From: Bernardetia sp. ABR2-2B
Lineage (GTDB): Bacteria; Bacteroidota; Bacteroidia; Cytophagales; Bernardetiaceae
Direction of reading: 5' to 3'
Length of the DNA stretch: 64,000 nucleotides
Assembly (NCBI RefSeq): GCF_037126435.1
Contig: NZ_CP147020.1
Span: 3,080,001-3,144,000, forward strand
Positions 11,036-43,450 of this stretch are shown one piece after another. The position numbers and the translations under genes are program-made. The notes beneath the pieces are model-generated. The model worked only from the letters and a program-made list of their open reading frames with translations, had not been told where the DNA came from and searched no databases. Each line of letters starts with the position of its first letter. Position 1 is the stretch's first letter.

Positions 11036-12355
11036 CTAATCATTGAGTGCTTTTTTGTAGGTTGATAAAGCTCTTTCTCGTGCTGCTTTGTGTTCTACAA
11101 TTGGTTTTGGATAATCTTTGGTATCATATTCTTTTATCCACGTGCGAATGTATTTTTGATTTTTATCAAATTTTTTGAGTTGAGATTCTGGATTAAAAAT
11201 ACGAAAATAAGGTGCAGCATCTACGCCACTTCCTGCTGCCCATTGCCAACCTCCGTTATTTGATGAGAGTTCGTAATCTAATAGTTTTCTAGCAAAATAA
11301 GCTTCTCCCCATCGCCAATCAATGAGTAAGTGCTTAGTCAGAAAACTAGCTGCTACCATTCTGACACGATTGTGCATAAAACCAGTTTCATTGAGCTGAC
11401 GCATTCCTGCATCTACCATCGGATAACCTGTTTTTCCTTCACACCACTTTTCAAATTCTTCTTGATTATTTCTCCACGGAATTTTATCATATTTTGAACG
11501 AAAAGCAGCATCGACTACTTTTGGATAATGATACAGGATACTCATATAAAACTCTCTCCAAATGAGTTCGTTAAAGTATTTTTCGTTGGTTTCTTTGGCT
11601 AATCGTGCTAACTTTCTGATGCTAATAGTTCCGAAACGCAAATGTGGACTCAATCTACTTGTTCCTTCTTTTGCTGGAAAGTCTCTTGTATCTTCATAGT
11701 TTTTAATGATTTCTTTAGGAAAATCATCAGACGGAATATGAGGGTTTGTATTAGCTTCAAATCCAATTTCTTTGTAGGTTGGAAAGTTTAGGTGTTTAGT
11801 TTTATAAAAATTATCAAAATATTTTTCAGTAGAATAGCTTTCTAAATGTTCTTCTTTCAAAGCACCTTTCCATTTCTTACTATATGGCGTATAAACTACA
11901 TAAGGTTCGCCATCGTCTTTCAAAACATCATCTTTTTCAAAAATCACTTGGTCTTTAAAAGTCTTGAATTTAATGTTTTTCTCTGATAAAAATTGCTCTA
12001 CATTTTCATCTCTGATTTTAGCATAGGGTTCATAATCATGATTGGTATATACTTCTTTTATGTCATAATTTTCAAGTAATTCTTTATAAACTTCTAGAGG
12101 CTTTCCTATTTTTACGCAAAGCGAACTGCCTATTTTTTTATCTTCTAACTCTTCTTTTATTTTATTCAAATATCTATAAATCATTGTCAGACGTGCATCA
12201 TCTTTGTCTTCTAGTTGGTTCAAAATATCTGTATCATAAATAAACAAGGGCAAGACTGCAAAATCTGAATGTAAGGCATGATACAAACCAGCATTATCAT
12301 CAAGACGTAAATCTCGGCGAAACCAAAAGATAGAAATTTGTTTTTTACTAGACAT
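11036..12355 (-). CDS. phrB: Deoxyribodipyrimidine photolyase, class I type
   Basis: A 439-residue flavoprotein that repairs UV-induced pyrimidine dimers using light. The N-terminal antenna-binding Rossmann part starts with IFWFRRDLRLDDN at about residues 9-21. The FAD-binding helical domain contains SRLSPHLRFGTIS, LIWREFYM, GKTGYPMVDAGMRQL, NRVRMVAASFLTKHL and the terminal NNGGWQWAAGSG and RIFNPESQ motifs, all typical of class I CPD photolyases. Length is close to the roughly 470-residue standard. It is upstream of sbcD on the minus strand, and no regulatory site for light induction is visible. Confidence 0.92.
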   Translation of the reverse strand: MSSKKQISIFWFRRDLRLDDNAGLYHALHSDFAVLPLFIYDTDILNQLEDKDDARLTMIYRYLNKIKEELEDKKIGSSLCVKIGKPLEVYKELLENYDIKEVYTNHDYEPYAKIRDENVEQFLSEKNIKFKTFKDQVIFEKDDVLKDDGEPYVVYTPYSKKWKGALKEEHLESYSTEKYFDNFYKTKHLNFPTYKEIGFEANTNPHIPSDDFPKEIIKNYEDTRDFPAKEGTSRLSPHLRFGTISIRKLARLAKETNEKYFNELIWREFYMSILYHYPKVVDAAFRSKYDKIPWRNNQEEFEKWCEGKTGYPMVDAGMRQLNETGFMHNRVRMVAASFLTKHLLIDWRWGEAYFARKLLDYELSSNNGGWQWAAGSGVDAAPYFRIFNPESQLKKFDKNQKYIRTWIKEYDTKDYPKPIVEHKAARERALSTYKKALND

Positions 12356-12547
12356 ATAATTTTAAGAATAGTTTTTATTTTTTTTAATGTCTTGCTAACT
12401 CTCTATTTATTTTTATTGTTTTGAAAACAATTTAAGTAAATGAAATTAATTTAATGTTGAAAGAAAGAAAAATTAGTAAGAAATAGTAGTTTAATGGCTC
12501 TGTATTGTTCCAATTATATATTTTTTATAATTAAAGGTAACTTTCCT

Positions 12548-12635: not shown

Positions 12636-13259
12636 ATGTCTAAGAAAGTAGCCATTTTTGGTGGAGGAATTGCAGGTCTTACTGCAGCACACGAATTAGT
12701 AGAAAAAGGTTTTGACATTACAGTTTATGAAAAAAATGAGATTTTAGGAGGAAAAGCTCGTAGTTTCTTGCTTAATGGAAATTTAAATCCTACTATGCAA
12801 TATGCAGGTGAACACGGTTTTCGTTTTTTTCTTCATTGGTACGAAAACTTTCATGATACTTTAAAAAGAATTCCTACGAAAGACAATAAAACAGTTTATG
12901 ATAATTTGGTAGATGTTGGAGAGATTCAAGTTGATGACTTTACATTTTCATTTATAGAATCTCATCCTAACCCAACAAAACCTCCAATAGCTTGGCTTAA
13001 AGCAATGCTTTCATCTCAAAAAAGACATGAAGAAGAATTCGAACAAACTACTTGGGATTCTTATATTACTTCGAATCTTCGTGGAACAGAATCAAAAGAG
13101 ATGATTCGTTTTTTCCAAAATACTCCAAAAGCAACAGCTTCTGTACATTCAACAGAAGCAAGTGTTAAAGCACTTGCACATACTTTAAATCGCTTTTTTA
13201 CAAATAATGGTCTAGGGATATTAAATGCTCCTACTAATGATGCCTTATTTGACCATTAG
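12636..13259 (+). CDS. FAD-dependent desaturase-like protein, N-terminal part ended by in-frame TAG
   Basis: The first 207 codons of a flavoprotein of the phytoene desaturase / hydroxysqualene dehydroxylase-like amine oxidase superfamily. The dinucleotide-binding motif GGGIAGL is at residues 9-15, the acidic end of the second strand and LGGKARS at about 37-43, and the substrate-side motif GEHGFRFF near 60-67. Translation stops at TAG (13257-13259), but the same frame stays open without a frameshift, and the following sequence is the rest of the same domain. In related proteins I recall a Trp here (a PTN...DPW type segment), so TGG to TAG is the simplest explanation. It may be a pseudogene, a readthrough gene or a sequence error. 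Confidence 0.75.
   Translation: MSKKVAIFGGGIAGLTAAHELVEKGFDITVYEKNEILGGKARSFLLNGNLNPTMQYAGEHGFRFFLHWYENFHDTLKRIPTKDNKTVYDNLVDVGEIQVDDFTFSFIESHPNPTKPPIAWLKAMLSSQKRHEEEFEQTTWDSYITSNLRGTESKEMIRFFQNTPKATASVHSTEASVKALAHTLNRFFTNNGLGILNAPTNDALFDH
13257..13259 (+). other. In-frame TAG interrupting the fusion gene
   Basis: The codons run GAC CAT TAG CAA AAT CAC. The frame of 12636 continues through this stop to 16394. The probable ancestral codon is TGG. Confidence 0.8.
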
Positions 13260-13277
13260 CAAAATCACTTATCTTCT

Positions 13278-16200
13278 TTGGGAGTAAAATTTGAGTTCGC
13301 AACCACTTTAGTATCACTCAATAGAAGTGATAATTCTATTGATAGTTCTTCAATTTTGATAAGAAATGAAAAAAAAGAAATTTATGCTGACTATTATATT
13401 AGTGCAATTCCTCATTTGGACTTAGAAAAAGTAATTAGTCAAAAAAACAAAAATGAGAAATTTAATTATTTAACAAAACTCAAATCGGGTTGGCAAGCAG
13501 GAATTGTATTTTATTTGAGTAAAAATATGCCTTTTCCTAATGGGCATTTTGCTCTTTCAAACTCTCCTTGGAATATTACAGGAATTTCTCAATCTAATTA
13601 TTGGTCAGAACAAGCTAGGCAAGAGTATTTAGATAAAAATAATATTGAATTGAATCTTTCCTTAATTATTGCAGACTGGGATTTAGAAGGAAATTTTATA
13701 CAAAAAACAGCAAAAGAATGTACTTTAGAAGAAATAGTTCAAGAATTGATTTATCAACTCAAAACTTACTGTCCTAAAGACTATAAAGAAAGTTTTGAAA
13801 ATATTGAGAAATGCTTAGTTGATTATACCATTGACCCAGCTATACATTTGACAGGAGATAATTCTGCGACTAATGAAACGCCTCTATTTATGAATGTGGT
13901 CAATCATTGGGAAGCAAGACCAAATGCAAAAAGTGAATTAGAAAATCTTTTTATTGCTGGAGATTTTGCCAAAACATCAGCCTATTTAGCTACAATGGAA
14001 TCGGCTAACGAATCTGGAAGACGTGCAGCCAATGAAATCTTGCAAATTAATAATAAAGGTTTTGCTGAAATATTTACAGAAAAACACTCAAAAACACCTC
14101 AAATATTTACACCTTTCATAAAAATAGATGAGATTTTATATGATTATGATAAATCGCATATACTAGATTATTTGAGTAATGAACAAGTAGAAGAATTAAC
14201 AAATGCACTTCTTCCTTATATTGATTTTGAAGGAAGTAATCTTCGTAATATTGATACATTATTCACAAGTGTTGTAGATACTTTAAAGCATCTTTTAGAC
14301 AAACTTCCTTCTTTGGGTAGTGATATAATTCAACTTCTAGTAACACAGACAAATGTAAAAGAAGACACCATAAAAGATGAATTAGCAAACAGAGTGCAAT
14401 TTTGGGCAAATGTGAGTTTGAAACTTGTAGAACATAAATCTAAGCAGTTTCCAGAAAGTTTGTCTTCTTACGTCGATATTGACAATCCTATATTTAAACC
14501 TCTATTGCATGTAGCCAAACAACAAGGTTCAATGAATAGAGCTAAGTTTGCTACTGCGTTAAATAATTGGTACGATGTTCCTTATGATGAACTTATTCAT
14601 CTGATGGAAACAGGACAAGTTCTTCATAATTGTAGCTTATTGATAGATGATACTATGGATAATACAACAGTTCGTAGAAATGACAAAACAGCCCATGAAC
14701 TTTTTGGAATCAATCAAACTTTGTGTGCAGCTTATTCTACTTATTTCCAAGTTTTATTATCTACTTATGTTAATTTAGGTTCAGATTGCTTGTTACATTA
14801 TTTGGAAGAAACAACTAGAGCGCATATAGGTCAATCAGATGATGTATATTACCGAGAAACAAAACTGTGTCCGACAGAAGAAAAATATATGGATATGGTG
14901 GGTAACAAAACAGGTAGTTTTTTTAGAGTATTTTCTATGTGTTTGGCAAGTTTGAGTAAAAAAACATTGTCCAAACAATTGAAAAATGATATTCTAGATT
15001 TTGCTGATTTTGTAGGAAAATTATATCAAATCAAAGATGATTATATGGATTTGATGTCAGAAGAGTATTTTATCAAAAAAGGAACATTTGCCTCAGATTT
15101 TGAAGAAGGTAAATATTCTTTTCCTGTTATTCATTGTGTTACTAACTTCCCTCAATATGCTGAAAAAATTGCCTTCTTATTAGGAAAAGAAGGGATAACA
15201 AATGAAGAGAAAAATGAACTTATGAGCTATTTAGAAGACTCAAAAAGTTTGGATTATACATTACATAAAATAACAGATTTATATCAAAAATGTGATGTAT
15301 TACTTTCTTCTATTGAAAATGAAAGTAGAGTTTCTAATCCTAAAATGAGAAGTTGGTTAGAAAGTTTTGTGTCTGATGTTCCTAATTTTAGTTATACAAA
15401 GAAGGCAAGTAAAGCAACTGTTCAAGTTCAATCAACTCAAAAACAAGATGTTTTTGAAATAAATTCAGTTGCTCCAGATACAATAAACAGGGCATTAAGA
15501 AATGTAATTTGCTCGTATCATATTTATTTCAAACTACATAATTGGACTTTAGAGCAGTTTTGGGAATGTTTCCCTTTATTACTTACCGTCGAAACGATGA
15601 TAATTAATGTTGATAATATCAATGAAGATAAAAATGAAAAAGTTTCTGTACTGACAAAAGAAGCCATTAAATCTTCTAAATCTTGGCAGTTTATATCAAA
15701 AAGCAGTTTTTATTCCCCTTTAATGGACGAGATATTAGACAATGCCATTGAGTATTTTAATTTAGAGAAAAAATGGTATCAATCTGAAAGTCAAGAAAAT
15801 AATGAATTATTTACAGAAGAGTTTCTGACAAAAATGAATCATTATAAATCTACTAATTTCAGAATTTTACATATTTTATCTCAAAATATTTGTGGAGACG
15901 AACCTCAAACTACTACAACTATCTATGATGATTACTATTTAGATGCGCAAATTATTGAAGACTATGTTTCTATGAGAATAGAAGAGTTTGAATATGAAGA
16001 AGACAAAAAAGAAAGCAAATATAATGTCTTTTTACATGCTCAAAAATTAGAAAATCAAATGTTTTTTGCAGAACACAAACAAGCTCTTTATGACAGACTT
16101 ACGTTTGCAGAGATTCAGATAGCTGCAAACTGGTATCAAGTTTATACCTCAGCATTAAGTATTGATACTCATCTTACTGGTATTTCTGCAAAAATGGATT

Positions 16201-16394
16201 TGAAGAAGGTGTATTCTATTGCTAAAGAAATATCTTTTGCTTGTAGTTTAGATGAAGACTTGTCAGAAATGACATTGAAAGGAAAATTCAAATGGTGTAT
16301 AAATAAATTCTTTGAAAAAGTGATTGCTCAAAAAACAAATGACGTTATTCTAACTCGTTTGCAAAAAGATGTTATCTTGTCTTTGTCTAATTGA
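13278..16394 (+). CDS. Rest of FAD desaturase-like domain fused to GGPP-synthase-like domain and helical C-terminus
   Basis: An open region of 1038 codons in the same frame as the preceding piece; the first in-frame TTG is at 13278, and no better start is seen. Residues 1-256 complete the flavoprotein domain, ending with the FAD-contact motif ENLFIAGDFAKT near 222-233. Residues about 405-700 are a polyprenyl diphosphate synthase domain of the eukaryote-like geranylgeranyl type: HNCSLLIDDTMDN with the first DDxxD at 457-461, RRNDKTAH, NKTGSFFR near 543-550, QIKDDYMD with the second Asp motif at 587-591, and FEEGKYSFPVIH near 608-619. Residues 700-1038 are helical and unassigned. The joined protein would be about 1252 residues. 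If this piece is translated alone, the prenyltransferase could still be active. Confidence 0.8.
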   Translation: MGVKFEFATTLVSLNRSDNSIDSSSILIRNEKKEIYADYYISAIPHLDLEKVISQKNKNEKFNYLTKLKSGWQAGIVFYLSKNMPFPNGHFALSNSPWNITGISQSNYWSEQARQEYLDKNNIELNLSLIIADWDLEGNFIQKTAKECTLEEIVQELIYQLKTYCPKDYKESFENIEKCLVDYTIDPAIHLTGDNSATNETPLFMNVVNHWEARPNAKSELENLFIAGDFAKTSAYLATMESANESGRRAANEILQINNKGFAEIFTEKHSKTPQIFTPFIKIDEILYDYDKSHILDYLSNEQVEELTNALLPYIDFEGSNLRNIDTLFTSVVDTLKHLLDKLPSLGSDIIQLLVTQTNVKEDTIKDELANRVQFWANVSLKLVEHKSKQFPESLSSYVDIDNPIFKPLLHVAKQQGSMNRAKFATALNNWYDVPYDELIHLMETGQVLHNCSLLIDDTMDNTTVRRNDKTAHELFGINQTLCAAYSTYFQVLLSTYVNLGSDCLLHYLEETTRAHIGQSDDVYYRETKLCPTEEKYMDMVGNKTGSFFRVFSMCLASLSKKTLSKQLKNDILDFADFVGKLYQIKDDYMDLMSEEYFIKKGTFASDFEEGKYSFPVIHCVTNFPQYAEKIAFLLGKEGITNEEKNELMSYLEDSKSLDYTLHKITDLYQKCDVLLSSIENESRVSNPKMRSWLESFVSDVPNFSYTKKASKATVQVQSTQKQDVFEINSVAPDTINRALRNVICSYHIYFKLHNWTLEQFWECFPLLLTVETMIINVDNINEDKNEKVSVLTKEAIKSSKSWQFISKSSFYSPLMDEILDNAIEYFNLEKKWYQSESQENNELFTEEFLTKMNHYKSTNFRILHILSQNICGDEPQTTTTIYDDYYLDAQIIEDYVSMRIEEFEYEEDKKESKYNVFLHAQKLENQMFFAEHKQALYDRLTFAEIQIAANWYQVYTSALSIDTHLTGISAKMDLKKVYSIAKEISFACSLDEDLSEMTLKGKFKWCINKFFEKVIAQKTNDVILTRLQKDVILSLSN

Positions 16395-16613: not shown

Positions 16614-16709
16614 TTCAAAAAAAATAACTTGCTGTTAATATAGGTTTTGGCAAAATGATTTTTTATTTTTATCAAAATCTTATTCTTAGTCTTTTCTTTA
16701 TCATTCTTA

Positions 16710-18023
16710 ATGAATTATTCTAGTACAAACGGAGATACACAAGTTGGCTCACTACGTGATGCATTATTTCAAACATTTAGCGTAAAGGGTGGACTTTTGC
16801 TTCCTGAAAATATAAAGCCTTTATCCAAAGAATTTTTAGCAAATCTTCATACTTTTTCTTTTAAAGAAATTTGTTTGAAAGTCTGTTTGAATCTTTTTGA
16901 AGATGAAATTCCAGAACAAGATGTAGAAAGAATAATTGAAAATACCTTTGACTTTGAGATTCCGTTAGTAGAAATTTATGAAAAAGAAGTTTATTCATTA
17001 GAGCTTTTTCATGGCGAAACTCTTTCTTTTAAAGATGTCGGAATGCGCTTTTTAGCAGAACTGATGAGTTATTTTTTAGAAAAAGAGAAAAAAAGTAAAG
17101 AGATAACTGTTTTGGTAGCTACTACAGGTGATACAGGAAGCGCAGCAGCAAGTGCATTCTTCAAAAGAAAAGGAATGAAAGTTTGTATTCTTTACCCAAA
17201 AAACAAATTGAGTTTGTTGCAAGAAAAACAGCTCAACACATGGGGAGAAAACATCACAGCTTTAGAGGTTGATGGAACTTTTGAAGACTGTCAAAGACTT
17301 GTAAAGGAAGCTATAATGGATAAAGAGTTAAATCAAAAAATACAGGTTACGACAGCTAACTCTTATAATGTTGCTCGTCTTTTAGCTCAATGTTTGTATT
17401 ATTTTTGGGCAGTTGCACAGCTGAAAGGAGAAAAACGAACAGCTATTTTTTCTATTCCAAGTGGAAATTTTGGGAATTTGACAGCAGGAATTATAGCCAA
17501 AAAAATGGGGCTTCGTATTAGTCGTTTTATTGCTGCCACTAATATTAATGACGTTGTTCCACAGTATTTGCTTAATGGGAGTTTTGAGCCACGCCCTGCA
17601 ATTCGTACTATTTCGACGTCGATGGATACAGGAAATCCTGTTAATTTTAAACGTTTGCTTACCCTCTACAATCATTCTTATACTCGTTTTTGTGCAGATA
17701 TTGCAGGGTATAGACTAACCGACCGAAGAACAAAAAATACGCTTAAAGATCTCTACGAAGGCTATAATTATTTAGCTGACCCACATTCTACGGTTGCTTA
17801 TGCTGCTCTCAAAAATTATCTTACTCCAGAGAGTGAAGTAGGAATTTTTCTTGCCACAGCTCACCCAGCCAAATATTATGAAGTAGTCAAACAAACCATC
17901 TTTGATATAGAATTAGAAATGCCTCCATTTTTGGAAGAAGCATTGAGAAAAGAAAAGCAAGTGGTTTCGATTTCTTCTAAAATTGAAGATTTGAAGGAGT
18001 TTTTAACTAAGATAAAGAGTTAA
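16710..18023 (+). CDS. thrC: Threonine synthase
   Basis: A 437-residue PLP enzyme that converts O-phosphohomoserine to threonine. The PLP lysine is Lys108 in HGETLSFKDVG, and the phosphate-binding ATTGDTGSAA follows at about 144-153. Later the GNFGN segment (IPSGNFGNLTAG) and the C-terminal DPHSTVAYAAL motif confirm the fungal/enteric-type subclass. It begins with MNYSSTNG, the usual start of this subclass. It is alone, without thrA or thrB next to it, unlike the enteric operon. A threonine dehydrogenase and glyA occur elsewhere in the window but are not linked. Confidence 0.93.
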   Translation: MNYSSTNGDTQVGSLRDALFQTFSVKGGLLLPENIKPLSKEFLANLHTFSFKEICLKVCLNLFEDEIPEQDVERIIENTFDFEIPLVEIYEKEVYSLELFHGETLSFKDVGMRFLAELMSYFLEKEKKSKEITVLVATTGDTGSAAASAFFKRKGMKVCILYPKNKLSLLQEKQLNTWGENITALEVDGTFEDCQRLVKEAIMDKELNQKIQVTTANSYNVARLLAQCLYYFWAVAQLKGEKRTAIFSIPSGNFGNLTAGIIAKKMGLRISRFIAATNINDVVPQYLLNGSFEPRPAIRTISTSMDTGNPVNFKRLLTLYNHSYTRFCADIAGYRLTDRRTKNTLKDLYEGYNYLADPHSTVAYAALKNYLTPESEVGIFLATAHPAKYYEVVKQTIFDIELEMPPFLEEALRKEKQVVSISSKIEDLKEFLTKIKS

Positions 18024-38149: not shown

Positions 38150-41100
38150 TCATAAACGAATCCCAATGATAGTTATATCATCTCGTTGTTCGGCTTTTCC
38201 CATGTGACTCTCCAAACTATTCAATATTTCCTGTTTTTGTGTTTTCATAGATTCAATACCTATCACAGATTCAAGTAGGCTTATTAACTTTCTAGAACCA
38301 AATTTATTAAGATCTTCATCTGATTGGTCAGCAAAACCATCACTAAATAGATATAGACACTCTCCTTTTCTGAGTTGAGTTTTATGATTCGTAAAAGTAC
38401 GTTTAGCTTCTCTTTGTACACCACCTACAGAACGTCTGTCGCCTTTAATAGATAAGAATTTCTTTTGATTTGAATACCATAAAGAACGTTTAGCTGCTGC
38501 AGTTTCAATATCAACTAAATCGTTTTCTCTATATTTCATTTTTGCAAGAACCATATCCATTCCATCACTATTATTGGTTGTAGTTTGTCGTAGTGCTTTT
38601 CTAATTCCACTATGTAAAGCTTCAATAATTAATGAAGGCTGGGTAATATTTTTTTGTAGAACAACTTCATTGAGTAATGTATTTCCAATCATAGACATAA
38701 ATGCGCCAGGAACGCCATGTCCTGTACAGTCTATTGCTGCAACAAAAATTTCATTTCCCACTTTTGTTGTCCAGTAGAAGTCTCCACTCACGATATCTTT
38801 TGGCTTAAACAAGATGAAGGCATCATCAAAGTAAGATTTTAGTTCTTTTTTTGCTGGAAAAATTGCTTTTTGAATAGTTTCAGCATAGCGAATACTTGAA
38901 GTAATACGCTCTTGAGAGTGTTTGAGCTCAGTAGTTCGCTCATCTACAATATTTTCAAGGTTTTCATATACCAAAGCATTATCAATAGAAACAGCAATTT
39001 GAGAGGAAAGAAGATTTAGTAAGTTTAATCGGTCTTTATCAAATACACTATGTGAGTGATTGTTTTCTAAGTACAATAATGCCAATACTTCGCCTTGTTT
39101 TAATATAGGCATACAAAGCAATGATTTAATTATATTGGTCTGAATATATTTATCTTGTTTGAATTTAGTATCTTGATAAGCATTGTCTAAAATAACAGCT
39201 TCTTTAGTACGAATGACATAATTTAGAACTGTTGAAGCTAGTTTATTGCTTTTTTGAATTGATTCAGACTGCATGACTTCAGTTTTATTTTCAGCTAAAG
39301 AATAATAAGCATCAATCTGATAACCTGTATCCTTTTTGAGTATCAAATAGCCTTTTTCAGCTCCTGCATTCTCTACAATAATATGAATCATCTTGGAGAG
39401 CAAATTTTCCAATTTTATCTCACCAGAAATAGCTTGACTAGACTTTAAAATGGTATTTAGGTCTAATGAGTTTCCAACAGATGTTCCTTTTGAGCTATGT
39501 GTAGTATAGGAAGACATAACAGTAGCATCATTAGAAGAGTGTGTTGTAAAATCACTTCCTTTTCTCTGATTATCTAGCAACAAACGGTATTGCTTTTCAA
39601 ATAAACGTACTTTCTTGATAGCACCCCACATTTTGTATAAATAATGTGCTTTTTGAATATAAATCTGAGCAAAGTCTTTTTTATCTAATGTCAAATAAAA
39701 CTTTCCAGCCAACTCGTTTGCTAGAGCCTCATCTTGTAAAAACTCATTTTTTTGTGCTGATGATATCGCTTTATCATAAAACTTCATAGCAGAAATAATA
39801 TCTTGATTTATTTGAGCGAGTTCTGCTTCTACCATAAAATACAAATGTGTAAAGTTTGCAGGACAGTTGTCCATCCAAGTTTTCATTTGCTCTTGATTAG
39901 CTGCTATTATTTCTAAGTACTCTTCTCTTTTTGGATGATTTGGCTCTTGAATGATAAGTCCACAAAGAGCTAGATTATAGTTATTATTATGGAACCAGTT
40001 CCATTCTGAACCAAAAAGAGCTGCCATTACAGGAATTGCTTTTTCAGAGTGTTCAAGAGATTTTTGGTAATCTTCTTGGTACAGATACATTCTTGCTTTT
40101 AAAGGTTCATAGATTCCTGCTCCAATTGGAAGAGTCTTAAAGCCTTCTAGGTAAGCTCTTTCATCAAATTCATCATTGTCAAAACTATCAGGAGCTTTAC
40201 TTAGACCTAGCATATTTTTAACGTAAGCATTTACTACAACACCAAGTTGAGCAGTACCATGATTTTTTATACTGTATTGAATAGCTATGTTTGTATCTAT
40301 TTCTGATGCTATTTTTTCTAGGTCAATTCCAGCTAATACTTGATGCCTTGCCAAAACACAATGTGCGTAGGCTGCATATCCATAATTTCCTGCTGCAACA
40401 CTTGCTTCGAAAGCTGTTTTGAAATAATGTAAGTTTTCCCTTACAGGTTTTCTCCAATGATTAAGAAAAATTCCAATTAAATGATTTATAGGTCCTTTGG
40501 TACGCAAATCTTCAAACTTTTCATTGAGTTTGAGAGATAATTGTCCTAGCTCATACCCTAATTTATAATTTCCCATTCCAGAAGATACAAATGTTGCATA
40601 GGCTGTATATGCCCAAGCTGTTTCAGCAGTATTTCCATGTTTGATGGCTAAAGCAACCATTTGGGCAGCCGTCAGTAATACCAAATTCATGTCTCCAGAC
40701 ATGTAACAAGAAGACCAAGTAAGATATAAAATTTTGGCAGCTTCATCTACCTCTTCATTTTGTAGGATAGGAAGTTTCTCTAAATAATCAACACCTCCTT
40801 TTTGTTCTAATGTAGTGCTTATAAAGCTAATCTCTTTTTGAAAAAGCTCCATCTTTTTGTCTTCATCAGTAGGCAGAAAAATGTTCAAAATAGAAAGTGC
40901 CTTACGGGCTAACTCTACAGCTTCTGCAAACTTAAATGAACTCTCTAATAGTAGAATCTGTGTATTATAAATTCTTACTTTCTCTAGTTTAGATTCAGAC
41001 TTTTCTAATAAGAGATTGAAAATTTCATCAGCTTCTTCTTTTTGTGCTTTTAAAAATAAACAGTCTGCCAAAATGCTGTATATTTCAAATGTTTGTGAAT

Positions 41101-43450
41101 GGTTTGTTTTCCAAGTATCATCTTCTAAAAGAGAAATAGCTGTCTTTACATAATTGATAGCTGGAATATAGGCTAATGATTGTTTTGCTTTTCGTCCTGC
41201 TCTAAGATTTACATGAATAAGTTCTTTTATTTCTTTATCCTTGTCTATTAAACCTATCCCTTGATTATAGTAATTAGCAATATCACAAATCCATTCTTGT
41301 ACATATTCTTCATCTTTTTGATAATACACAAAGCGAGCAATTTTTAGACTTGTAGCTTTCTGCTCTGCTGTTTCCATCAGAGAATAAGCAGCTTGTTGAA
41401 CCCTATCATGCAGAAAACAAAAGATGATACTAGCATTTTCAGTTGTCTCATCAATTCCCTTATAACTATCATCTTCTGAATAAACCAATCCTTCTTGAAG
41501 GGCAGGAATAAACCTATCTACAGTTTCTTTTAATGAAAAACCTGCAACATTAGCTACTATTTGAATATCAAACTTTCCTCCAATACTAGCAGCATATTTT
41601 AATACTTCCTGTGTCTTTTCATTAAACTGTCTAATTTTCTGAGACATGAGTTCGACTACATTGTCTGTACTACCTCTTTCTTTTATCTTATCAATGTTCC
41701 AACCCCATTCTTTTTTCTTTTCATTAAACTCTATAAGTTTCTTGTCATAAAGAGTTTCTAAAAACTGATTGGTAAAAAACGGATTTCCTTGTGTTTTTTG
41801 ATAAATTATTTTAGCTAAGTAATAACTAGACTCATTTTGCTGGTTGAGAGTCTCGTTTACTAATGTTGCAATACTTTCGAAACTTAGTGCTTCTAAAGTA
41901 ATCTTTGTCATAGATACTTTTGCATTTTCTAAATCTCCAATTTTTATGGAAAAAGGGTGTGATGTATCCACTTCATTGTCTCGGTATGTTCCGATAAGCA
42001 TTAAATGTGTATTGTTTACATCTGTCATGAGAAGTTCTAGCACACTTAGGCTTCCTGCATCTGCCCATTGCCAGTCATCAATAAATATTACTAATGGATG
42101 TTCTTGTTTACTGATAGCACGTACAAAGTTTTGAATGACTAAGTTGAAACGATTCTGAGCCTCACTAGGTCCTAACTTTTGCACAGCATTTTGCTTACCT
42201 ATGATTAGTTCTAATGAAGGAATTACTTCTGTCAGAACACCTGCATTTATTCCTAAGACAGTTTTTATTTTCTCAGTCCACATCTTGATTCGCTCTTGCG
42301 ATTCGGTCAAGATTTGCTGGATAAAGTTCTTGAAGCTCTCAATAATTGCGCTGTAAGGAACATCCCTTTGAAACTGATCAAATTTTCCCTTTACAAAATA
42401 TCCTTTCTTTTGAGTAATGGATTTATAGAGTTCATTTACCAATGCCGTTTTTCCAATTCCTGAATATCCACCTAAAAGAACTAGATGATTTGCGCCATAA
42501 CTTACCTCATCAAATATCTTACTTAACTTTTCAATTTCATTTTCTCTGCCATAGAGTTTTTCTGGAATTTGAAAGGTTGTTGTAATGTCTTGTGTGGCTA
42601 GTTCAAATTCAATATTTTGTTGTTCCTCTTTTAAAGCATTTGATAGCTTTTCTAAGTCATTTTGTAATCCAAAAGCAGTCTGATACCTTTCTTCTGCATT
42701 TTTGTAGAGTAACTTAGCAATAATTTTAGAGAGTATTGGAGGAATATCAGCATTCTTTTTATGTGCCAATGGAGGTGTCAGTGCGATGTGTGAGTGAACC
42801 AGCTCCATCATATCTGATGACTCAAAGGGCAGGCTTTCTGTAAAAAGCTCATAAAGTGTTACACCCAAAGAATACAAATCTGTACGAACATCTACTGAAC
42901 GGTTTACTCTTCCTGTTTGCTCTGGAGAAATATACATTACTGTACCCTCCATTGCATTTGTTAGTTCTGTATTTTGTTTTTGTCTTTTAAACTGTGAAGC
43001 AATACCAAAATCTATGATATAAACACACTTATCATTCCCTATTATTATATTCTTTGGGTTTATATCTTTATGAATTATATTGGCTTGATGAACTTCCTGT
43101 AGTGCAATAGTAGTATTTATGGCAATACTCAACTTTTCCTCTAGAGAAAGCCTATTATTTTGCATGTAGTCTTTCAAGGAGTATCCATCTATATAATCTA
43201 ATACTAAAACGTGACGATTGTCAATCCTGTGTTGGCTAATGGCTTTGCGTATTGTATCTGATTTGATATTTTTTGTCAGTGTATGTTCTTCCTTAAACTT
43301 AGCAATATCTTTTAGAGAAGGTAAATTATCACGCAATACTTTGATAGCTACTTTTTTATTTAATTCTTTATGTATTCCTTCATAAACTATTGTAATTTGT
43401 CCAACATGTATTTCTTTTATGTCTTTTGCAAAGGGGAAGAGGTTATTCAT
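38150..43450 (-). CDS. Ser/Thr kinase - AAA ATPase - TPR - GAF - SpoIIE phosphatase signalling protein
   Basis: A 1766-residue multidomain cytoplasmic protein. A protein kinase domain (about residues 10-275) has Lys37 in VAIKVL, HKDINPKN with the catalytic Asp, DFG and SPE. A predicted ATPase module follows (about 295-600) with the Walker A GGYSGIGKTAL and Walker B VIFIDDWQWAD. A long helical, TPR-like region spans about 620-1290, then a GAF domain (about 1325-1480), a short coiled coil, and a PP2C/SpoIIE phosphatase (about 1510-1766) with DFYWTTKVG and AIDCTGHGVPGAFM. The glycine-rich loop is degenerate (IHVGQITIVYEG). It can both phosphorylate and dephosphorylate Ser/Thr. It is divergent from the AraC-type gene. 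Confidence 0.9.
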   Translation of the reverse strand: MNNLFPFAKDIKEIHVGQITIVYEGIHKELNKKVAIKVLRDNLPSLKDIAKFKEEHTLTKNIKSDTIRKAISQHRIDNRHVLVLDYIDGYSLKDYMQNNRLSLEEKLSIAINTTIALQEVHQANIIHKDINPKNIIIGNDKCVYIIDFGIASQFKRQKQNTELTNAMEGTVMYISPEQTGRVNRSVDVRTDLYSLGVTLYELFTESLPFESSDMMELVHSHIALTPPLAHKKNADIPPILSKIIAKLLYKNAEERYQTAFGLQNDLEKLSNALKEEQQNIEFELATQDITTTFQIPEKLYGRENEIEKLSKIFDEVSYGANHLVLLGGYSGIGKTALVNELYKSITQKKGYFVKGKFDQFQRDVPYSAIIESFKNFIQQILTESQERIKMWTEKIKTVLGINAGVLTEVIPSLELIIGKQNAVQKLGPSEAQNRFNLVIQNFVRAISKQEHPLVIFIDDWQWADAGSLSVLELLMTDVNNTHLMLIGTYRDNEVDTSHPFSIKIGDLENAKVSMTKITLEALSFESIATLVNETLNQQNESSYYLAKIIYQKTQGNPFFTNQFLETLYDKKLIEFNEKKKEWGWNIDKIKERGSTDNVVELMSQKIRQFNEKTQEVLKYAASIGGKFDIQIVANVAGFSLKETVDRFIPALQEGLVYSEDDSYKGIDETTENASIIFCFLHDRVQQAAYSLMETAEQKATSLKIARFVYYQKDEEYVQEWICDIANYYNQGIGLIDKDKEIKELIHVNLRAGRKAKQSLAYIPAINYVKTAISLLEDDTWKTNHSQTFEIYSILADCLFLKAQKEEADEIFNLLLEKSESKLEKVRIYNTQILLLESSFKFAEAVELARKALSILNIFLPTDEDKKMELFQKEISFISTTLEQKGGVDYLEKLPILQNEEVDEAAKILYLTWSSCYMSGDMNLVLLTAAQMVALAIKHGNTAETAWAYTAYATFVSSGMGNYKLGYELGQLSLKLNEKFEDLRTKGPINHLIGIFLNHWRKPVRENLHYFKTAFEASVAAGNYGYAAYAHCVLARHQVLAGIDLEKIASEIDTNIAIQYSIKNHGTAQLGVVVNAYVKNMLGLSKAPDSFDNDEFDERAYLEGFKTLPIGAGIYEPLKARMYLYQEDYQKSLEHSEKAIPVMAALFGSEWNWFHNNNYNLALCGLIIQEPNHPKREEYLEIIAANQEQMKTWMDNCPANFTHLYFMVEAELAQINQDIISAMKFYDKAISSAQKNEFLQDEALANELAGKFYLTLDKKDFAQIYIQKAHYLYKMWGAIKKVRLFEKQYRLLLDNQRKGSDFTTHSSNDATVMSSYTTHSSKGTSVGNSLDLNTILKSSQAISGEIKLENLLSKMIHIIVENAGAEKGYLILKKDTGYQIDAYYSLAENKTEVMQSESIQKSNKLASTVLNYVIRTKEAVILDNAYQDTKFKQDKYIQTNIIKSLLCMPILKQGEVLALLYLENNHSHSVFDKDRLNLLNLLSSQIAVSIDNALVYENLENIVDERTTELKHSQERITSSIRYAETIQKAIFPAKKELKSYFDDAFILFKPKDIVSGDFYWTTKVGNEIFVAAIDCTGHGVPGAFMSMIGNTLLNEVVLQKNITQPSLIIEALHSGIRKALRQTTTNNSDGMDMVLAKMKYRENDLVDIETAAAKRSLWYSNQKKFLSIKGDRRSVGGVQREAKRTFTNHKTQLRKGECLYLFSDGFADQSDEDLNKFGSRKLISLLESVIGIESMKTQKQEILNSLESHMGKAEQRDDITIIGIRL

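Follow-up and report, generated by a model that had tools for sequence, protein, structure and literature searches.

A TAG-interrupted reading frame joining an FAD oxidoreductase to a eukaryote-type geranylgeranyl diphosphate synthase in a Bernardetia strain

In the stretch of 64,000 nucleotides from Bernardetia sp. ABR2-2B that was analysed here (the window), a single reading frame, interrupted by one TAG codon, joins an FAD-dependent oxidoreductase part, a eukaryote-type geranylgeranyl diphosphate synthase (GGPPS) and a C-terminal tail (Table 1). This domain combination is real and so far singular, and it represents a new arrangement of known enzymes. On balance it is probable that the frame is a chimeric isoprenoid-biosynthesis gene, which lies in the slot that the genus uses for terpenoid genes, was until recently maintained by selection as a single frame, and is now either cut by the TAG or affected by a base error. 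Against this explanation stand its restriction to one genome, the TAG itself, the loss of conserved columns in the FAD part, a Lys-to-Ser change in the GKxxR motif of the GGPPS part, and a tail that matches no family. As far as roles can be proposed from sequence, the GGPPS part would, following what is known of its family, build a chain of C20 or a similar length from IPP and allylic diphosphates, while a prenyl product of that pathway may be oxidised or desaturated by the FAD part. Stand-alone relatives of the FAD part could play a similar role beside Pyr4-type cyclases or polyprenyl synthases, and the helical tail sits where a cyclase or a docking or dimerisation partner would help, which as a role is a guess.

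Table 1. Positions of the features of the fusion frame and its flanks in the window, and loci of related gene pairs in other Cytophagales.
Feature	Position	Strand	Basis
Left shared slot flank, photolyase side	12300..12427		96.9% identity to sister genome G004
FAD-dependent oxidoreductase part (amine-oxidase/HpnE-like), ATG start, TAG-interrupted	12636..14160	+	Pfam/NCBIfam on the read-through; alignment with nine relatives
In-frame TAG at the position of an invariant Trp	13257..13259	+	alignment of relatives
Linker of about 100 residues	14161..14460	+	no match in profile searches
Eukaryote-type geranylgeranyl diphosphate synthase domain	14472..15359	+	PF00348 and PDB matches
First Asp-rich motif, DDTMD	14646..14660	+	motif check
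Second Asp-rich motif, DDYMD	15036..15050	+	motif check
C-terminal ~330 residues and TGA stop	15402..16394	+	no relatives; helical by a low-confidence model
Right shared slot flank, threonine-synthase side	16619..16799		86% identity to G003 and G004
FAD gene directly beside PF25129	L052-L054, L093, L096, L097, L099, L101-L103, L105, L107-L111

Translation of the window gives, from 12636 to 16394 on the plus strand, 207 codons, the TAG, 1044 further codons and a TGA, so that the single frame with one TAG described in the first-pass annotation is confirmed with correct coordinates. From the base composition about 102 internal stops would be expected in this frame, compared to the one that is found, and the remaining five frames contain 75-145 stops each; codon usage is native-like. 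The TAG is one base away from TGG, and the Trp with which it aligns is invariant in relatives from Bacteroidota, Pseudomonadota, Actinomycetota and haloarchaea (locally YPWRDYL, QPWLDYL and DPWTQRL in relatives versus DH*QNHL in the window, the asterisk being the TAG). Beside it, a conserved P is changed to H and a conserved W to L. As TAG terminates 8 of the 28 long open reading frames within the window, it is the normal terminator there, and a recoding of the stop codon is thus unlikely and was rejected. With TAG being an ordinary stop, either the fusion gene was disrupted only recently or this base is wrong. The full polypeptide is not producible from the sequenced DNA without read-through, and of the first-pass idea that the reactions take place in one polypeptide, the joined frame stands, whereas a single product is doubtful.

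A recently broken pseudogene, in which a nonsense mutation ended the pathway of a formerly functional fusion in this strain and the frame now awaits decay, is possible, if unlikely. It agrees with the position of the TAG at the invariant Trp, with the ordinary stop function of this codon, with the two conserved residues lost next to it, and with the FAD copies of three other genomes, which are likewise split or frame-broken (genomes G191, G250 and G282; loci L111:4994-6692, L113:5055-6829 and L112:4855-5469) and suggest a recurrent loss, but the 1251 further codons are open, which means that the break would have to be very young, and neither the codon usage nor most of the GGPPS motifs show damage. 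A single-base calling or assembly error, with an intact fusion of 1252 codons as the true gene, is also conceivable but doubtful, as one G/A difference explains the entire anomaly in an otherwise perfect frame, but two adjacent conserved positions are changed as well (P to H, W to L). If the TAG is taken as it stands, the products would be a stub of 207 residues and, by re-initiation, a protein made of the second half of the FAD domain, the GGPPS and the tail. That these are two working genes, the second being separately started with 1044 residues or fewer and self-sufficient in its GGPPS and tail, is very improbable: a restart could occur at TTG 13278 or ATG 13527, and the GGPPS domain has the profile score of a complete member of its family, but from both starts the protein would include half an FAD domain that serves no purpose, and no ribosome-binding site is visible by eye near 13260-13300. 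On the favoured reading of a chimeric gene, the sequenced strain would have the gene cut by a nonsense codon where relatives have a conserved Trp, or the base would be wrong; selection would have kept the gene as a single frame until recently, and the fusion was probably functional until very recently and possibly is still intact if the TAG is erroneous.

The FAD part belongs to the amine-oxidase/phytoene-desaturase-like FAD superfamily. Residues 1-508 of the read-through match the Amino_oxidase profile PF01593 (2.2e-24, 87 bits, cut-off 19.8), and alignment with nine relatives shows the FAD dinucleotide motif, GGGIAGLTAAHEL, besides a retained GEHGFRFF motif and a C-terminal motif, AGDFAKTSAYLATMESANESGRRA (AGD...ATMESANE). 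The best-scoring curated family is HpnE (TIGR03467; 2.6e-27, 96 bits), and this score is far below the equivalog cut-off of 283, so that an assignment as hydroxysqualene dehydroxylase was rejected; the same holds for phytoene and zeta-carotene desaturases (67 and 65 bits versus cut-offs of 569 and 622). Of the earlier description as a flavoprotein of the phytoene-desaturase/HpnE type, the superfamily can thus be kept, but membership in either of the named families cannot. The FAD part is 30-33% identical to the stand-alone FAD genes of Cytophagales, and it has lost 21 of 88 columns that are invariant in its relatives, as compared to about 6 of 94 in equally remote outgroups (Streptomyces, Nocardia, Haloterrigena). 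In the tree of the FAD family the window copy is on a very long branch and, owing to the length of that branch, is not placeable. Lost columns and branch length together indicate that the FAD domain evolved fast, before or since the TAG arose, and, judged by these substitutions, its activity may be altered or lost.

The GGPPS domain, residues ~405-700 of the second open reading frame, is a member of the polyprenyl synthetase family by profile, with a PF00348 score of 143.6 bits (7.9e-42) against a cut-off of 27. Among PDB chains, fungal CPS/GGPPS and human GGPPS match it with about 150 bits (2e-43 to 6e-42, 34% identity), compared to about 65 bits for the best bacterial chain, and both DDxxD motifs are present, which bears out the eukaryote-like GGPPS with DDTMD and DDYMD that had been recognised from the letters. 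Also the LH, RR, KT, Q and GK motif residues are kept. The IPP-binding GKxxR motif reads GSMNR, with Lys replaced by Ser and the Arg retained; a complete GKxxR is a matter of full activity and not of PF00348 membership by profile.

The tail of the fusion has no family match in Pfam, NCBIfam or the PDB, and searches in viral contigs, 292 Cytophagales and 396 Bacteroidota returned, besides the tail itself, only three weak matches at chance level. Weak matches to Rpb4, RfaC and cofilin were below cut-off or insignificant and were rejected. By sequence check, the tail contains no transmembrane segment and none of the DDxxD/NSE/DxDD motif sets of class I or class II cyclases. A Pyr4-like transmembrane cyclase was rejected, as there is no PF25129 match and the hydropathy maximum is 1.1 versus 2.7 in the cyclase of relatives, and so was a fusion of the fungal chimeric terpene synthase type, since the tail has neither DDxxD with NSE nor a terpene-synthase match and the N-terminus is an FAD protein. 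A second prenyl-synthase repeat was rejected with an HMM score of -0.6 bits, which 285 of 1000 shuffles equal, and an hhalign score of 16.6 against up to 23 in shuffles. Single-sequence structure models reached a pLDDT of 42 for the tail and 36 for the GGPPS with the tail, a quality too low to be informative, and a Foldseek search with the poor tail model gave no match at E<=0.001. On a further, decidedly unlikely reading, the tail would be either a second prenyl-synthase copy that has degenerated or a terpene cyclase of class I, and the fusion would then parallel, in a bacterium, the chimeras of prenyltransferase and cyclase known from fungi. The size of the tail and the all-helical prediction would fit, and KST and QIIEDY resemble KTG and QIKDDY by eye, but profile comparisons with prenyl synthases are not above shuffles, the DDxxD and NSE set is absent, and Foldseek, on its poor model, matched nothing.

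Searches of the family's genomes, of 292 and 284 Cytophagales genomes and of 396 Bacteroidota genomes found the joined frame, the eukaryote-type GGPPS and the tail in the window genome only. The FAD gene occurs in 25 other Cytophagales, always as a stand-alone open reading frame of at most 682 amino acids. In phages there was no match to the fusion, and on plasmids only separate genes were found; a pattern scan of genome contigs, which requires exact peptides of eight residues and is insensitive, detected only two remote prenyl synthases. A literature search found no paper on an FAD-GGPPS fusion. The three-part order, for which the first-pass annotation knew no bacterial precedent, is thus unique among all genomes searched; the same architecture, which it had proposed to look for in Bacteroidota, was not found elsewhere, and homologues of the FAD part are always separate genes, which it had regarded as the sign of a local accident.

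The surroundings of the frame connect it to terpenoid genes. In G003 and G004, two genomes of the same genus, the slot between the photolyase and the threonine synthase is taken up by three genes, which encode the FAD protein on its own, a transmembrane terpene cyclase of the Pyr4-like kind (PF25129, 1e-16) and a SpoIIE-type phosphatase, and in the window genome the corresponding slot contains the fusion. Because both flanks are so similar in sequence (Table 1), it is the slot content that differs between shared edges. PF25129 is absent from the window genome, which has two prenyl synthases in addition to that of the fusion. It is quite unlikely that the fusion is a bacterial three-domain enzyme in which a eukaryote-derived GGPPS has become part of an FAD oxidoreductase and bears a new non-membrane cyclase or another prenyl-processing domain, taking the place of the FAD and Pyr4-cyclase pair of the sister species.

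In other genomes the FAD gene adjoins a Pyr4-like cyclase gene (PF25129) in 16 of the 25 Cytophagales loci, and in one locus, L093, a P450 accompanies the pair, of which no description was found in the literature. On Streptomyces and Ruegeria plasmids a polyprenyl synthetase gene adjoins the FAD gene. These independent pairings, together with the slot of G003 and G004, are the strongest evidence for a role of the FAD part in isoprenoid metabolism, and due to this gene context the isoprenoid reading is well supported and gains a basis that is independent of the original annotation. The usual partners of the FAD gene speak for cyclised terpenoids or meroterpenoids as products, more than for carotenoids.

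Known systems resemble the fusion only in part. In the chimeric terpene synthases of fungi (PTTS), to which fusicoccadiene synthase belongs, a class I cyclase is N-terminal and the GGPPS C-terminal (PMC8307374, PMC8190136), and such prenyltransferase-cyclase chimeras have been described as fungi-only (PMC8307374). Like these, the window fusion joins a eukaryote-type GGPPS to another isoprenoid-pathway part in one frame, but here the FAD oxidoreductase is N-terminal, the GGPPS in the middle and the tail C-terminal. The trifunctional carotenoid fusion crtIBY of thraustochytrids acts from GGPP onwards and has no GGPPS (PMC10016063); it shares with the window frame the fusion of an FAD enzyme to other isoprenoid parts, whereas the window fusion includes a GGPPS and its FAD domain is not a CrtI by any curated cut-off. 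The Cytophagales pairs of FAD gene and Pyr4-like cyclase have the same FAD family, and in G003 and G004 also the identical slot, but consist of separate genes and lack a GGPPS. Bacterial clusters with Pyr4-like terpene cyclases are known for xiamycin, tolypodiol and zigralone, the last with a UbiA prenyltransferase and P450s, and in a very recent survey of bacterial Pyr4-type cyclases 69% of the filtered set were from Actinomycetota, its main text mentioning neither Bacteroidota nor a comparable FAD partner (PMC13307353). Such clusters with oxygenases resemble the slot version of the sister genomes, whereas Pyr4-type genes are absent from the window genome. In a bacterium, a fusion that contains a eukaryote-type GGPPS would be an example of the assembly-line solution of fungi arising from a different partner. 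In addition, the analysis exposes the pair of FAD oxidase and Pyr4-type cyclase across Cytophagales, a group with very little work on pathways of this kind, and the photolyase/threonine-synthase slot permits a direct comparison of alternative versions.

Several further observations concern the neighbourhood of these genes. By Pfam, a SpoIIE-type phosphatase or a histidine kinase recurs beside the FAD or cyclase gene (L051-L054, L093, L095, L100, L103, L104, L106-L110, L113), as though a sensor or a signalling output belonged to the terpenoid product. In two genomes, the FAD gene is followed not by a Pyr4-like cyclase gene but by one for a DUF6989 protein (PF22497; L104:6904-7572, L106:6830-7519), which may be a cyclase of a different kind. 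In G008, a gene for an MpaB/Lcp-type oxygenase (PF09995) directly precedes a Pyr4-like cyclase gene with no FAD gene present (L115:998-2881), and the locus L114 of G007 resembles this arrangement by appearance. On the Ruegeria plasmid (L050:3478-8392), a family 1 encapsulin gene is followed by the FAD gene and the polyprenyl synthetase gene. Elsewhere in the window, the minus strand carries at 38150-43450 a frame of 1766 residues with a protein-kinase-like start and, by eye, a GAF-like and SpoIIE-like C-terminal region.
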